DNA of 64,000 nt from Pseudanabaena yagii GIHE-NHR1 (GTDB lineage Bacteria; Cyanobacteriota; Cyanobacteriia; Pseudanabaenales; Pseudanabaenaceae). The stretch lies in the NCBI RefSeq assembly GCF_012863495.1, contig NZ_JAAVJL010000001.1, forward strand, positions 124,001 through 188,000. Reading direction: 5' to 3'. Under the pieces are notes generated by a model. That model saw nothing but the letters and a program-made list of their open reading frames with translations. It did no database searches and was not told where the DNA came from. Shown here piece after piece: positions 2 through 62,593 of the stretch; positions within the stretch are counted from its first letter, which is position 1; the number at the start of each line of letters is the position of its first letter. Both the position numbers and the translations under genes were made by a program.

Positions 2-152
2 AATAACGCGAGTTCGGGATGATTTGAAACAGGCTTTGAGAGAGGATTTGCTACGCAAAACCTCTCTCAAAGCCCAAAAATAAAAGCCTTGCTACGCAAG
101 GCTTTTATTTTTGGGCTTTATTTGTCAGCTTACCCCGAACTGACGTTAAATA
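2..152. repeat. Composite double-hairpin element, family A, copy 1
   Basis: Outer arms aacgcgagttcggg (5-18) and cccgaactgacgtt (134-147) are imperfect inverted repeats. They enclose two adjacent hairpins: 32-74 (14-bp stem ggctttgagagagg) and 70-118 (core gccttgc-tac-gcaaggc, 22-bp stem). The reverse complement of the whole arrangement recurs at 28501-28655, and the two hairpins alone recur at 50541-50618. Stem bases differ between copies in paired fashion. Confidence 0.85.
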
Positions 153-3169: not shown

Positions 3170-3303
3170 ATTTAATTCTGGAGTTTAAGATTACAACCCC
3201 ATGATATTACCCTACCCATAGAGTTGGTATAGTACTTTTTGCTGCAACACAATAAATCATAAAATAAGAGAAATTTACCTACAACAAATTAATCTAATTA
3301 GCT

Positions 3304-3342
3304 TTTGTGGAAGTGCACCCCGAAGGGGTGCACTTCCACAAA
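3304..3342. repeat. Hairpin of family B (partial copy)
   Basis: This is a perfect inverted repeat: tttgtggaagtgcacccc, loop gaa, and its complement. It is the same central stem as at 4367-4405, 16692-16731 and 46061-46100, but the outer arms of that family are degraded here. It lies in the 280-bp gap between the divergent lipoprotein and HD-domain genes; I see no gene in the rest of that gap. Confidence 0.8.
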
Positions 3343-3468
3343 CCATTTACGGTTGCTATATAGCTTCCGATAATTTTGTAGATAAATCCTAATAAATGAT
3401 CTCTAAAAACAAAAGTTAGGCTTATTATTTAGGTTGAATTTTGGCTTTACATAGGCATACGAAGATTT

Positions 3469-4349: not shown

Positions 4350-4436
4350 TAGCAATCCTAAATGTTTTATGGAAGCGCATCCCTTCGGGGTGCGCTTCCA
4401 TAAACCCCAAAATTTATAAATGACTTAGGACTGCTA
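4350..4436. repeat. Dispersed element family B, complete copy
   Basis: Outer arms tagcaatcctaaat (4350-4363) and the imperfect complement ending ggactgcta enclose a perfect 18-bp hairpin (4367-4405, loop ttc). Nearly the same unit, with both outer arms, is at 46046-46136. It follows the HD-domain stop codon by 8 bp and may terminate that transcript. Confidence 0.82.
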
Positions 4437-4502
4437 TAGAGGGTTTCCATACTAAAAAAGCAATCCAAATTGAAAGTTGTGACGACTGCAAAGAATATCT
4501 CC

Positions 4503-10211: not shown

Positions 10212-11081
10212 GTTTCCATCCCCTTGCGGGGAAATTGTTATGAAACGGAGAATAGGCTTCGGTAATTTATCAAAAGATAAATTACTTTCGTTTCCGTCCC
10301 CTTGCGGGGAAATGATTATGAAACGTTGTAGTAGCTAAGCAATGTTTACCACATAAGCTTGTTATTCGTTTCCGTCCCCTTGCGGGGAAATGGTTATGAA
10401 ACGTTGAACGTTGATCTGCAAACAGCTCAACAGCTTAACAATCAGCTGTTTCCGTCCCCTTGCGGGGAAATGGTTATAAAACGTGTTTGTGGTCAATAGT
10501 TTCTGAGATTTTAGTTTCTTCTCGTTTCCGTCCCCTTGCGGGGAAATGGTTATGAAATCGAGATTGCAGGTGTATACCAAAACAATCTGCCATACATGTT
10601 TCCGTCCCCTTGCGGGGAAATGGTTATGAAACGCAACACGCCGTCTAGGTCGCGATTATGAAAGATACGGTTTCCGTCCCCTTGCGGGGAAATGGTTATG
10701 AAACTATTGTGAAACCAATTTTCGGCACTGTTTTGGAAACGTTTGGTTTCCGTCCCCTTGCGGGGAAATGGTTATGAAACCATTTGCTCTGGCGATTCCT
10801 ACGAAGTACCGATTAATAGTTTCCGTCCCCTTGCGGGGAAATGGTTATGAAACACCATTGATTATGACTAAAAGACAAAGAATTGCTCTATTCCTATGTT
10901 TCCGTCCCCTTGCGGGGAAATGGTTATGAAACAACTTGAACAACACATGTTTCGCGGGAGCAGCGCATTTAGGTTTCCGTCCCCTTGCGGGGAAATGGTT
11001 ATGAAACAGTACATTAAAATAGCCTATTATCTGATTAACAATCTATGTTTCCGTCCCCTTGCGGGGAAATGGTTATGAAAC
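10212..11081 (-). CRISPR. CRISPR array, 12 repeats and 11 spacers, probably transcribed on the minus strand
   Basis: The 35-bp repeats start at 10212, 10290, 10368, 10448, 10524, 10598, 10670, 10746, 10819, 10898, 10973 and 11047. Plus-strand form begins gtttccgtccccttgcgggg and ends tggttatgaaac. Spacers are 37-45 bp and all different. Read on the minus strand the repeat has a CCCC-GCAA-GGGG hairpin followed by the 8-nt tail ACGGAAAC, the usual Cas6-type 5' handle. Repeats 6-12 are identical, while those at 10212 (two changes), 10290, 10448 and 10524 (one each) are decayed, which marks the left side as the old trailer end. No cas genes lie within the window, so the effector must be encoded elsewhere. 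Confidence 0.95.
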
Positions 11082-16601: not shown

Positions 16602-16691
16602 AGATTTATTTCAGGTTTTGTTGATCACAAAGCAGCAGGAGCAGCAGTGTTTTGCGTTCCTCATCCTACCAAAAAACGGTAGTGCTAAATG

Positions 16692-16731
16692 GTTTGTGGA
16701 AGCTCACCCCGAAGGGATGAGCTTCCACAAA
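16692..16731. repeat. Hairpin of family B at the aldo/keto reductase 3' end
   Basis: tttgtggaagctcacccc / loop gaag / complement, an 18-bp stem with a family B centre. The left outer arm (gtgctaaatgg, 16682-16692) is recognisable and the right one is lost. It ends 2 bp before the stop codon of the reductase gene on the minus strand. Confidence 0.8.
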
Positions 16732-16732
16732 C

Positions 16733-17860
16733 CTATTCCCAGAGTCGCCGACCTTCTTCACCATGTAAGCGATCATGGGTATCCCGCAAAAGTCTAGGGA
16801 TTTCAAGATTTTCAGGACATCTCGGTAAGCAGTCGCCACAGTCGGTACAGCGAATGGCTTTATTCCCCGGAAACCAATGTCCTGCATTCTCAAACATTTT
16901 ATAGCGATATTTCCCAAACTCCACCATATCAAAGCCGATCGCTAAATTTCGGAGTCTGAGGACTTCAGGAATATTAATGCCTTCGGGACAGGGTAGGCAT
17001 TGATAGCATTGTGAACAGCGATCGTTTTCTAAGAGTGTGTAGCGGCGATTCATGCAATCGAGAACTGCGGCTTCTAATTCAGACATCGGGGCATCGTTAT
17101 CCCATGCGTCCTGATGGGAATCTACTTCGCTAGGATTCGCTGCACCAAGGCTGAGGGTATGTACACGCGGATCACTCAGCAAAAAGCGATCGCACATATA
17201 TAAAGCTGTATATGGATAGCAAACACCTGATAGTTCTTCGGAAGGGTTATAGAGCATCCCGCCTTTATCCGATGGCGAAATGATAAATACCCCCATATCT
17301 TTTTCATGGGCAAGCTGTACCGCAGGGGCATTACGCTGATTGAAGTAGTAATAATGTAAATTAACAGACTCAAATAAGCCAGTACGAATCGTGTCTAAAA
17401 TTACTTCAAGTGAACCGTGGGTAGAAAAGCCTACATGTCCAAGCATCTTTTGATCGATCGCTTCCCTAACCGCTTTCATACATCCATTGGGATCTTTCAC
17501 CAGATCGAGATGTTCGTATAGATTAATCCCATGGATATCGAAGTTATCGACATAGTCCACATTCATCTTTTTGAGGGACTGTTCGATTTGCCGACGCATA
17601 GAGTCTGCATCTTTGGTAGGACCAATTTTGGTTGTCAGATAAAAGCGATCGCGTTGCTTACTAAGACCATTTCGCATTGCCTGACCAATAAATTCTTCAC
17701 TCTTGCCATAGCCCTGCGCTGTCTCAATATGGTTAATGCCAACTTCTAAGGCGTGCCAAATCGTTTTTTCCGCATTCGCCGCAGATTCTAAATAGCGCAT
17801 TGCTCCTAAGGAGAATACGGACAAAAGCATCTCAGTTTTGCCAAAACGACGATAGCGCAT
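16733..17860 (-). CDS. Aldo/keto reductase with C-terminal double [4Fe-4S] cysteine motif
   Basis: This 375-residue protein is a TIM-barrel aldo/keto reductase (residues ~1-270) joined to a ferredoxin-like tail. The barrel shows the start MRYRRFGKTEM, INHIETAQGYGKSEEF with the probable catalytic Tyr, and TTKIGPTKD with the Lys. The tail has CSQCYQCLPCPEG and CTDCGDCLPRCPE, eight cysteines that could ligate two [4Fe-4S] clusters. This architecture is known as a family of NADPH or ferredoxin-linked oxidoreductases, but the substrate is unknown. It is monocistronic, with hairpins at both ends. Confidence 0.9.
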   Translation of the reverse strand: MRYRRFGKTEMLLSVFSLGAMRYLESAANAEKTIWHALEVGINHIETAQGYGKSEEFIGQAMRNGLSKQRDRFYLTTKIGPTKDADSMRRQIEQSLKKMNVDYVDNFDIHGINLYEHLDLVKDPNGCMKAVREAIDQKMLGHVGFSTHGSLEVILDTIRTGLFESVNLHYYYFNQRNAPAVQLAHEKDMGVFIISPSDKGGMLYNPSEELSGVCYPYTALYMCDRFLLSDPRVHTLSLGAANPSEVDSHQDAWDNDAPMSELEAAVLDCMNRRYTLLENDRCSQCYQCLPCPEGINIPEVLRLRNLAIGFDMVEFGKYRYKMFENAGHWFPGNKAIRCTDCGDCLPRCPENLEIPRLLRDTHDRLHGEEGRRLWE

Positions 17861-28500: not shown

Positions 28501-28655
28501 AATTAACGTCAGTTCGGGTTAAGTTGGCAAATTTTAAAAGCCCCAAAGTAAAAGCCTTGCATAGCAAGGCTTTTACTTTGGGGCTTTGAGAGATGGTTTG
28601 CTATGCAAACCATCTCTCAAAGCCTATTTCAAATTATCCAGAACTCGCGTTATTT
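28501..28655. repeat. Composite double-hairpin element, family A, copy 2 (inverted)
   Basis: This is the reverse complement of the element at 2-152 over its whole length. Outer arms are at 28505-28518 and 28638-28651. The hairpins are the long stem around gccttgc-ata-gcaaggc and the stem around gagagatggtttgc. Relative to copy 1, stem positions change in pairs (for example aaaat/atttt to aaagt/acttt). The rest of the gap 28310-28828 holds no gene that I can see. Confidence 0.88.
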
Positions 28656-36834: not shown

Positions 36835-36874
36835 TGCGATAAGGCTCTTACGGATAAAAAATGTCCCACCAAAG

Positions 36875-36956
36875 TTATCTAGCTTCGACTTCGCTCAGCT
36901 AACGTTGGCTGAGCGAAGCCGAAGCCAGAGGTACTTTAATTAATAGCAAGTCCCTA
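36875..36956. repeat. Dispersed element family D, single copy (inverted)
   Basis: Core hairpin agcttcgacttcgctcagc / complement (36881-36926) plus the tail gtactttaattaatagcaagtccc. The reverse complement matches 45365-45447, where the left half is present three times. Its last three bases supply the bioF stop codon (36954-36956). Confidence 0.82.
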
Positions 36957-45258: not shown

Positions 45259-45445
45259 AGGGACTTGCTATTAGTACCTGTGGCTTCGACTCCGCTCAGC
45301 CAACGTTAGGGACTTGCTATTAAAGTTAAAGTACCTGTGGCTTCGACTCCGCTCAGCCAACGTTAGGGACTTGCTATTAAAGTTAAAGTACCTGTGGCTT
45401 CGACTCCGCTCAGCCAACGTTAGCTGAGCGAAGTCGAAGCTAGAT
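45259..45445. repeat. Dispersed element family D with tandemly triplicated left half
   Basis: The unit beginning agggacttgctattaaag and ending gctcagccaacgtt is 57 bp and occurs at 45308-45364 and 45365-45421, identical, plus a first copy of 49 bp (45259-45307) lacking eight bases. Only the last copy is followed by the complementary arm agctgagcgaagtcgaagct, completing the hairpin. A simple single-copy version is at 36875-36956. Confidence 0.9.
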
Positions 45446-45479
45446 AAATTTGTTGGGACATTTTTTATCCGCAAGAGCA

Positions 45480-46045: not shown

Positions 46046-46136
46046 TATAGCAATCCTAAATGGTTTGTGGAAGCGCACCCCAAAGGGGTGCGCTTCCACA
46101 AACCCAAAAATCTACAAATGATTTAGGACTGCTATA
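46046..46136. repeat. Dispersed element family B, complete copy
   Basis: Outer arms tatagcaatcct and aggactgctata enclose the perfect stem tttgtggaagcgcacccc, loop aaa (gap 45924-46674). Nearly identical to 4350-4436; the loops differ (aaa against ttc). Confidence 0.87.
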
Positions 46137-46159
46137 GGTAATTCAGAATAGTTATAAAT

Positions 46160-49572: not shown

Positions 49573-50538
49573 ATGATTGTTAAAGAATTAGATCGTCTAG
49601 AACCAAGTGATAAATTTGAGCAAGCAGGATATTACGCTGAATCCCAGCTTGCGTTTTATCTCAAACGTGAATTTAAAGATGATCCACAGTTTCTAATTTT
49701 TAATAATCTACGGTTAGTAAAAGCTAATGATGTTTGCCAGATCGATCATTTAGTATTACATCGATATGGAATGGTAATTATCGAGAGTAAAAGCGTTACT
49801 ACTCGTGTTGAGGTTAATGAGCATGGTGAGTGGAAGCGTTGGTTTAATAATGCTTGGCAAGGAATGCCATCACCAATTTTGCAGGCACAACGACAGGGGA
49901 AATTTCTTAAAGATTATTTGGAGAATCATGTTGAGACTCTTCTAAATAAGAACCTTTTGGGCAATCAAACCCATTTCACGAAAATGCCAATTGATGTTTT
50001 GGTAGCAATTTCTGATTCTGGAATTATCAACCGTCCTCAGAATGAAAAGCTCGATCTTGTCTGTAAGGCGGATCAAGTTCCTGACAAGGTTAAAGCGATC
50101 GCAACGGAATATCGGAAAAAAGATAGTCTCTTCAACCTTAGCTTAGAGATTCCCTATGAGTTTGCTAAAGATGAAATCCCAAGAATTAGTCAATTTTTGC
50201 TGACTAGCCACAAACCAGCCGCAACTCATAAAAAAACTGTTTCTGTTGCGCCTAAGGATATTCAGAAACCAGAAATCAAGAATAAGCCGATTATTAAAGA
50301 AGCAAAGCCAACTGCAAAGAACATCTGTTCCCATTGTCAAAGTCTAAATTTGTCAATTTTGTATGTTCATAGTTACTTCTTTAAATGTAACGATTGCAGC
50401 AAAAATACGGCGATTAAAAATATATGCCCATCCTGTGGCGATCGCGAGAAAGTCAGAAAAAGCAGCCTACAGTTTTTTACTGAATGCGAAAAATGTGGTA
50501 CTTCACGCTTATTTCATACCAACTCAACAAACACCTAA
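49573..50538 (+). CDS. NERD-domain protein with C-terminal zinc-ribbon pair
   Basis: This 321-residue protein has an N-terminal NERD domain (~10-125), a nuclease-related fold: GYYAESQLAFYL, then the acidic CQIDHLVLH and VIIESKSV with the D-x-ExK-like active-site pattern. The middle part (~225-250) is Lys/Pro-rich and likely flexible. The C-terminus has four CxxC pairs (CSHC, CNDC, CPSC, CEKC), forming two topoisomerase-type zinc ribbons. Nuclease activity is inferred from the fold. It could act in DNA processing or defence; no partner gene is adjacent. The cysteine pairs suggest DNA binding. Confidence 0.86.
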   Translation: MIVKELDRLEPSDKFEQAGYYAESQLAFYLKREFKDDPQFLIFNNLRLVKANDVCQIDHLVLHRYGMVIIESKSVTTRVEVNEHGEWKRWFNNAWQGMPSPILQAQRQGKFLKDYLENHVETLLNKNLLGNQTHFTKMPIDVLVAISDSGIINRPQNEKLDLVCKADQVPDKVKAIATEYRKKDSLFNLSLEIPYEFAKDEIPRISQFLLTSHKPAATHKKTVSVAPKDIQKPEIKNKPIIKEAKPTAKNICSHCQSLNLSILYVHSYFFKCNDCSKNTAIKNICPSCGDREKVRKSSLQFFTECEKCGTSRLFHTNSTNT

Positions 50539-50540
50539 AA

Positions 50541-50656
50541 CTTTTAGAGAGGGTTTGCTACGCAAACCCTCTCTAAAAGCTCAAAAGTAAAAGCCTTGCT
50601 TCGCAAGGCTTTTACTTTCGACTTTGCTCAGCCCGCGTTGGCTGAGCGAAGTCGAA
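50541..50656. repeat. Family A double hairpin joined to a family D hairpin
   Basis: Stem 1 is cttttagagagggtttgc (50541-50579) and stem 2 is aaaagtaaaagccttgc (50583-50618), the two hairpins of family A without its outer arms. Immediately after comes ttcgactttgctcagcc / complement (50617-50656), the core of family D. The compound lies between the convergent NERD and mlaE genes. Confidence 0.85.
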
Positions 50657-50665
50657 GCCACAGTC

Positions 50666-60631: not shown

Positions 60632-60684
60632 GGCTTCGACTTCGCTCAGCCATCGGTGAGAGGTGGCTGAGCGAAGTCGAAGCC
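60632..60684. repeat. Hairpin with family D core in the gap before the ABC gene
   Basis: ggcttcgacttcgctcagcca (60632-60652) pairs perfectly with 60664-60684. The gap 60328-60782 otherwise shows no gene and only presumed promoters for the divergent genes. Confidence 0.85.
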
Positions 60685-62562: not shown

Positions 62563-62593
62563 CTAGGAAAAGATACTTCGTATCTTTTCCTAG
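62563..62593. terminator. Hairpin after the ABC ATPase gene
   Basis: ctaggaaaagatac, loop ttc, full complement, directly after the stop codon and 25 bp before the next start, so the two genes may be separately transcribed. Confidence 0.82.

Follow-up and report, generated by a model that had tools for sequence, protein, structure and literature searches.

An IS982-derived MITE of Pseudanabaena with hairpins probably inverted and homogenised by replication template switching

The repeated two-hairpin element found at the beginning of the analysed DNA of the freshwater cyanobacterium Pseudanabaena is, judged by its sequence, an IS982-derived MITE, that is, an ordinary kind of mobile element. 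We consider it probable, at about three chances in four, that this MITE is mobilised by IS982 and that its hairpins are inverted and homogenised by template switching in the course of replication. Flips of the hairpin loops between close relatives suggest that DNA copying, rather than selection on an RNA, keeps the arms matched. On our analysis, both the loop inversion and the stem covariation are most likely due to template switching, whose fit is clearest for the inversion. Covariation in stems is usually taken as proof of a functional RNA; the present bacterial case combines strong covariation with a mutational process that is visible in the same hairpins and could account for it.

The window (the whole stretch of 64,000 nucleotides that was analysed) corresponds to G000:C1:124001-188000, where G000 is the window's own genome of 5.57 Mb. 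A preceding sequence-only reading had described two hairpins between outer arms at 2-152, the same arrangement as its reverse complement at 28501-28655, and the hairpin pair alone at 50541-50618. This description held: 2-152 and 28501-28655 are one element in two opposite copies, with arms 1-119 and 28537-28655 complementary at 87% over 119 nt and covariance model scores of 166.6 bits for copy 1 and 183.7 bits for copy 2 (both copies belong to the model-building set), and the match at 50538-50625 is limited to model positions 30-117 of 152, with 86.6 bits. The fold z-score of the element is -13. The limits and parts of the copies are as follows.

6..146, + strand: MITE copy 1, 141 bp, 5'-ACG...CGT-3' (placed by BLAST, target duplication, covariance model and sequence)
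32..74, + strand: hairpin 1 of copy 1; its stem has a single A-A mismatch and its loop is TAC
69..119, + strand: hairpin 2 of copy 1; perfect stem of 24 bp closed by the loop TAC; terminator-like on the + strand
147..152, no strand: right target-site duplication of copy 1, TAAATA; on the left side, it consists of the nucleotide preceding the window and positions 1-5
28506..28650, - strand: MITE copy 2, 145 bp; the flank repeat is TA only
28537..28587, - strand: hairpin 2 of copy 2; stem of 24 bp; read on the + strand, the loop is ATA
28582..28624, - strand: hairpin 1 of copy 2, arms GAGATGG/CCATCTC, perfect
50541..50618, + strand: fragment with both hairpins and without the terminal arms (placed by sequence comparison and covariance model)

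In copy 1, AAAGCC is common to hairpin 1 and the outer arm of hairpin 2, so that the outer pairs compete. The fragment starts right after the end of an open reading frame at 49573-50538 and runs into a different palindromic repeat at 50615-50662. The individual stem changes quoted in the sequence-only reading were found in the sequence; an exception that it had not mentioned is the A-A mismatch in hairpin 1 of copy 1.

The element is present in many copies. With the covariance model, at least 90 distinct places were found in G000 at 86 bits or more, fragments included; this count, made by hand, is a lower bound, as 150 of the 4007 candidates were scored, and the element is thus far from confined to the few copies that would have spoken against a mobile element. 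BLAST gave at least 40 long matches in G000 (40 of 174 candidates scored), and the terminal motif AACGNNAGTTCGGG had 74 matches there against 3 for the reversed pattern. The copies of G000 lie in either orientation. Across the genus, a match at E 1e-4 or better was obtained in 25 of 26 Pseudanabaena genomes, and in only 10 of the 26 was the best match at 1e-40 or better. A 36-nt stretch of the consensus was found exactly in 6 contigs of three Pseudanabaena records and in no others among the matches listed, a listing that may lack the records belonging to the genome of the window. Among individual loci of G000, two copies in the same orientation lie with 154 bp between them at G000:C1:2225431-2225888, and two partly overlapping matches were seen at G000:C1:2141145-2141425. 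The copy in L063 (G000:C1:2473900-2476400) is broken in hairpin 1 by an insertion that carries a 435-aa transposase-like open reading frame (weak IS701 match) and another one repeating about its last 150 residues.

The ends of the MITE match those of a resident insertion sequence (IS), with ACGTGAGTTCGGG(A/T)TAA in the IS and ACGCGAGTTCGGG or ACGTCAGTTCGGG in the MITE (end sequences compared: IS ACGTGAGTTCGGGATAA; MITE ACGCGAGTTCGGGAT and ACGTCAGTTCGGG). Two identical 1006-bp copies of this IS are present in G000, their transposase frame being cut at 256 aa, and a third copy, 84% identical, has the full 293-aa frame and a broken right end. The 293-aa frame covers positions 2-242 of the 243 of the IS982 transposase profile, and the assignment to the IS982 family by NF033520 was obtained with 239.4 and 260.6 bits at a cut-off of 130. 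Beyond the ends, BLAST detected nothing in common between the MITE and the IS at E below 1. Note that in the third IS982 copy (L270), a long perfect palindrome stands in place of the right terminal repeat, and the core of this palindrome recurs at the left flank of the same copy; this may be a hairpin caught while template switching was creating it.

Target duplications and an empty site, for both of which the sequence-only reading had proposed to look, were found. The duplication test was applied to 40 copies, and the end pattern was located at both ends in 31 and missed in 9; direct repeats of 6-9 bp flank 20 of these 31 testable copies, and all have the form T...A, i.e. T-N4-7-A. In five copies without any repeat, the pattern seems to have misplaced an end. 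Copy 1 is flanked by the TAAATA duplication, while copy 2 repeats only TA. One empty site was seen, a copy of the related genome G007 being absent at the matching place of G000, with flanks 87-88% identical and a small length difference within an AT run. For copy 1, a clean empty site was not found in four other Pseudanabaena species (L201, L203, L204 and L205), in which different hairpin elements occupy the same intergenic place.

The copies of the window, 141-145 bp in length, are too short for a transposase of their own, and they have the terminal inverted repeats in common with an IS, a target duplication and an empty site, as expected for a MITE. The IS982 family is known for 5'-AC ends and direct repeats of variable length (PMC7335449), and the same features, along with an IS982 transposase in the partner, are found here in a Pseudanabaena host. 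The element is therefore assigned to the IS982-derived MITEs, because of ends that match IS982, T...A duplications and the empty site, and we infer that it is mobilised in trans by the IS982-family transposase. The earlier proposal of a non-autonomous mobile element of MITE type is in this way substantiated by the ends, the target duplications, the empty site and the resident IS982 transposase. A counterpart has been described in Cardinium, where MITECca01 is an IS982-derived MITE with the ends of its parent and without transposase (PMC9769881). MITECca01 is about 240 bp long and the main text of that paper does not use the word hairpin (PMC9769881), whereas the Pseudanabaena element is 141-145 bp long in the copies of the window and has two long internal hairpins.

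The kinship to REP elements that had been suggested at the same time is not supported, since IS-type inverted ends and target duplications are present instead. REP elements have no target duplication and no IS-type ends, and their partner is a RAYT. The likeness to REP/RAYT palindromes (PMC3733652) consists in short, intergenic, palindromic sequences in many copies, but inverted ends matching IS982 and target duplications set the Pseudanabaena element apart, and REP membership is rejected on these two grounds.

That changes in one stem arm are usually accompanied by changes in the opposite arm, as had been claimed, was confirmed for an alignment of 39 of the 40 copies, L066 being left out as a tandem. 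In this alignment, 16 of 38 stem pairs changed on both sides against 2.7 in shuffles, 35 cells were two-sided changes against 3.1, and 97.8% of cells were paired against 94.4%, so that compensation clearly exceeds chance; no slid structure went above 6 pairs. Mismatched cells in both hairpins were divided into 21 G-T and 22 A-C, with no sign of wobble tolerance on the + strand, a comparison that counts as moderate evidence only because the copies lie in either orientation. Across the window, L061, L023 and L063, the Rfam gathering score was reached only by CRISPR repeats and by no family on the element. The selection on an RNA or on a folded DNA form that had been proposed to explain the covariation survives in part: selection on an RNA is not needed, because between near-identical genomes unrelated hairpins also show inverted loops and, in a few cases, paired changes of the arms, and the folded-DNA alternative comes close to the best explanation, though as a mutational process and not as selection.

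Loop inversion was observed in sister genomes, the draft G006 (about 160 contigs) and the one-contig G007, which differ by 0.745% over 346.5 kb aligned. Fifteen MITE copies could be matched across the two. For hairpin 1, 13 of them were comparable: 6 have an inverted loop (GC-TAC-GC to GC-GTA-GC), 6 the same loop and 1 a substituted one. For hairpin 2, the loop is inverted in 3 of 12 copies and the same in the other 9. The flanks of 12 of the 15 paired copies had 0-4 differences over 566-649 positions; those of the other three had 19, 90 and 171, two of these values stemming from a contig end (L111/L131) or from probable non-orthology (L113/L137), both of which were kept in the counts. No inversion was seen in four hairpins whose stems are imperfect (both hairpins of L128, hairpin 2 of L124 and, in L119, hairpin 2 of the second copy). 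At the level of assemblies, exact inversion of the loop between otherwise equal alleles is thus seen. Both orientations also coexist within single genomes: hairpin 1 loops read 17 times CTACG and 7 times CGTAG in G000, plus rarer forms, and 9 times CGTAG and 7 times CTACG in the 16 copies read in G007, and hairpin 2 loops of G000 comprise CTTAG (12) and CTAAG (5), CTACG (5) and CGTAG (9), and rarer forms besides.

This inversion acts on long perfect hairpins in general and is not a property of the MITE. Perfect hairpins with arms of at least 9 bp and loops of 3-12 were compared between 400 kb of G007 and 394 kb of G006; 183 of 208 were mapped and kept (20 were unmapped and the rest lost to the flank filter or at edges), and 176 of the 183 were informative, self-complementary loops being left out. 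The finder mostly takes at most one hairpin per MITE copy because neighbouring MITE hairpins overlap. Exactly inverted loops were found in 42 of the 176, mostly outside the MITE, and their share rose with arm length: 1 of 50 at 9-11 bp, 6 of 41 at 12-15, 15 of 44 at 16-19, 5 of 17 at 20-23 and 15 of 24 at 24 bp or more (Spearman 0.43, P 2e-9). Starting from G006, with all mapped hairpins, the same classes gave 1 of 51, 6 of 47, 14 of 49, 4 of 14 and 15 of 24. With arms of at least 14 bp, 40 of 108 were inverted; MITE-like hairpins (3 of 7) and others (37 of 101) did not differ, MITE-likeness being set by a sequence pattern; a degenerate MITE copy contains at least one of the 37. Where the loop had changed and the stem of at least 12 bp had not, 38 changes were exact inversions and 2 were other. 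Among hairpins of at least 14 bp with identical 300-bp flanks, 13 were inverted, 20 unchanged and 2 changed in length. Under a two-state model, inversion at arms of 12-23 bp exceeds the per-site substitution distance by a factor of 25 to 88, and at longer arms it is saturated.

A second and more distant genome pair was G000 and G023, in which synteny is broken: of the 80 hairpins counted in a 144-kb part of G000, 10 could be mapped to G023, and shorter flanks were then used. For arms of at least 12 bp, with MITE-like hairpins left out, 4 of 7 cores were inverted, 3 replaced and none unchanged. Between these genomes, whole hairpins are swapped for different ones at window position 62563 and at positions 127552 and 127711 of the G000 stretch continuing the window, with flanks 95-98% identical. 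In small syntenic pieces of five further genome pairs, no inversion was found, 3 cores being unchanged and 8 different. Outside the genus, ten pairs of 20-kb rpsL stretches from other genera gave no inversion among 11 mapped hairpins, of which only 4 had arms of at least 12 bp, a sample that says nothing about the rate, and 50 kb of E. coli MG1655 and SE15 gave none among 5 mapped, again too small a number.

In a few hairpins, the two arms change together as well. In G007 against G006, stems of at least 14 bp with 2060 pairs showed 15 one-sided and 6 complementary two-sided changes, where 0.04 two-sided changes would be expected from independent change; the reverse direction gave 10 and 2. One-sided changes are in both directions commoner than two-sided ones, and homogenisation would therefore be slower than inversion. 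Of the 6 two-sided changes, 4 are confined to a pair of hairpins whose flanks are only 96-97% identical and could come from exchange with a more distant strain that swapped the hairpin; the other two lie in hairpins with flanks 98.0 and 99.0% identical. In hairpin B 41223, with identical flanks, GGG/CCC became GAG/CTC together with a length change.

The course of events that we propose would begin with an IS982-family transposase mobilising in trans a MITE whose cargo is two long, near-perfect hairpins. Within such a palindrome, the replicating polymerase would sometimes change strand or template; a switch to the opposite strand and back would leave the loop inverted, and copying of one arm from the other would make the arms complementary again. 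Loop flips and arm matching together may then produce the covariation, in long perfect hairpins across these Pseudanabaena genomes. In yeast, template switching between the arms of inverted repeats homogenises the arms and inverts the spacers, and spacer inversions, ten of which were reported in coding genes, were seen only at arms over 9 bp, favour long arms and are reversible (PMC8604942). Trees of rRNA genes gave 69 loop inversions, and template switching in RNA genes was named there as a source of compensatory changes (PMC8794818). Exact loop inversion, the preference for long arms and, here in a few hairpins, arm matching are common to these systems and the present one (PMC8604942, PMC8794818), and the reversibility reported for yeast (PMC8604942) is suggested here by both loop forms among the copies. 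In contrast to the ten spacer and 69 loop inversions recorded there (PMC8604942, PMC8794818), a single Pseudanabaena genome pair gave 42 among 176 hairpins, mostly intergenic, with a mobile element in addition.

The genomic position of the hairpins bears on the alternatives. Relative to open reading frames from a simple calling script, the long hairpins (arms of at least 14 bp, 183 in all) comprise 62 in convergent, 75 in tandem and 32 in divergent spacers, 11 within reading frames and 3 at edges; the respective spacer lengths are 18.8, 46.3 and 28.5 kb, so that convergent spacers are the densest, and 117 of the long hairpins are nearer to a 3' end against 52 nearer to a start. For the MITE, 30 of the 40 copies were classed in the same way: 11 each fall in convergent and tandem spacers, 4 in divergent ones, and 4 have no set context. 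Rho is absent from cyanobacteria, and in one species only a minority of transcript ends is accounted for by canonical terminators (PMC13289151). A MITE-carried transcription terminator is a possible secondary role, although the region of copy 1 hairpin 2 has 4 terminator-like matches against 3.3 in shuffles. In stretches of five Pseudanabaena genomes, hairpins with arms of at least 14 bp number 31-39 per 100 kb against 2.5 in 400 kb of ten other genera, and those with arms of at least 20 bp 11-19 per 100 kb against none, a contrast that is overstated by the choice of gene-dense stretches surrounding rpsL in the other genera.

It is unlikely in our estimation that selection on a structured RNA (a small RNA, an mRNA stabiliser or a terminator) keeps the stems through compensatory substitutions. 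Strong covariation (16 of 38 pairs), a stable fold and the crowding of hairpins in convergent spacers and near 3' ends would all suit such selection, as would the terminator-like hairpin 2 of copy 1, though matches of this kind are no more frequent than in shuffles. However, G-T and A-C cells are nearly equal (21 and 22), the copies lie in either orientation, no Rfam family reaches the gathering score, the loops flip freely where an RNA function of the loop would resist, and complementary double changes appear already at 0.75% divergence. Selection for any hairpin at gene ends could coexist with a process at the DNA level. Such a process might instead consist in a dedicated or structure-specific enzyme that cuts extruded cruciforms at the hairpin base and re-joins them without replication. 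The graded dependence on arm length fits extrusion as well as it fits template switching, and long hairpins are far more numerous in Pseudanabaena than in the ten other genera with their biased, gene-dense stretches; yet the inverted hairpins have no common sequence (37 distinct inner arm 8-mers among 42), and template switching accounts directly for two-sided arm changes, whereas cutting and re-joining would explain the inversion but the arm changes less directly. Such an enzyme is unlikely. The loss of the hairpin-suppressing nucleases SbcD or XseA was rejected as the cause, SbcD being found in 25 of 25 Pseudanabaena genomes, with two copies in G000, and XseA in G000, the sole Pseudanabaena member of the XseA search sample.

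An error of assembly or amplification in loop orientation, by k-mer ambiguity or strand switching in PCR, is very unlikely. PCR enzymes do invert hairpin loops, at most in 1.54% of reads, which is too few to change a consensus (PMC5218489); G006 is a draft of about 160 contigs, and the five other pairs, with few hairpins, lack inversions, but inversion was also seen in the second pair, with G000 in 9 contigs and G023 in 1, and both loop forms occur within the one-contig G007 (9 CGTAG and 7 CTACG). Moreover, inversion rises gradually from arms of about 10-12 bp, where k-mer ambiguity would give a step at one length. Gene conversion between MITE copies, spreading loop and stem variants, would agree with the same variants being present in many copies; as inversion is equally frequent in hairpins that are not MITE-like (37 of 101, compared with 3 of 7 MITE-like ones, arms of at least 14 bp), it is rejected as the sole cause and is scarcely credible as the main one. 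Template switching remains the reading that we prefer, and a bolder reading is rather unlikely, namely that an unusually active hairpin-inverting process of Pseudanabaena, possibly with an enzyme of its own, turns hundreds of intergenic hairpins into two-state loops, at a rate that exceeds per-site substitution by a factor of tens or more, and builds and maintains the genome-wide stock of perfect hairpins, while MITEs spread hairpins as mobile gene-end signals.

If template switching acts as proposed, screens for intergenic hairpins in such genomes could yield false RNA families. At the same time, these genomes offer a natural, countable template-switching system in a free-living bacterium, with loop orientation as a clean two-state marker that depends steeply on arm length, and they link a cyanobacterium to the hairpin inversions of chloroplasts. 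Small inversions at chloroplast hairpins were reportedly described by Kelchner and Wendel in 1996. Inversions at chloroplast hairpins are already in print: in trnH-psbA and others, loops are inverted between palindromic arms and vary within species (PMC2903610). Both traits are paralleled here, whereas the chloroplast case concerns organelle DNA with 25-27 bp inverted and the present one mostly 3-nt loops in a free-living cyanobacterium (PMC2903610). In a search of limited listings by title or the start of the abstract, no report was found of an IS982-derived MITE of Pseudanabaena, nor of hairpins with inverted loops in the chromosome of a cyanobacterium.

Additionally, the window holds other repeats. 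A CRISPR array occupies 10263-11081, with ten repeats over the gathering score of Rfam CRISPR-DR57; it is preceded by degenerate duplications from 9741, direct duplications of 139-165 bp with repeat-like units. A second palindromic family (GTTTGTGGAAGCGCACCCC...) is found at 4350-4439 and 46048-46137, and also at 3296-3344 and 16685-16733; the outer arms TAGCAATCCTAAATG / TTAGGACTGCTATAG are common to two copies, and it looks like another hairpin-carrying MITE. A third palindromic family (GCTTCGACTTCGCTCAGCC...) lies at 36844-36939, 45273-45478, 50615-50662 and 60633-60680, once as a 57-bp tandem, and it adjoins the truncated MITE copy at 50541-50618.
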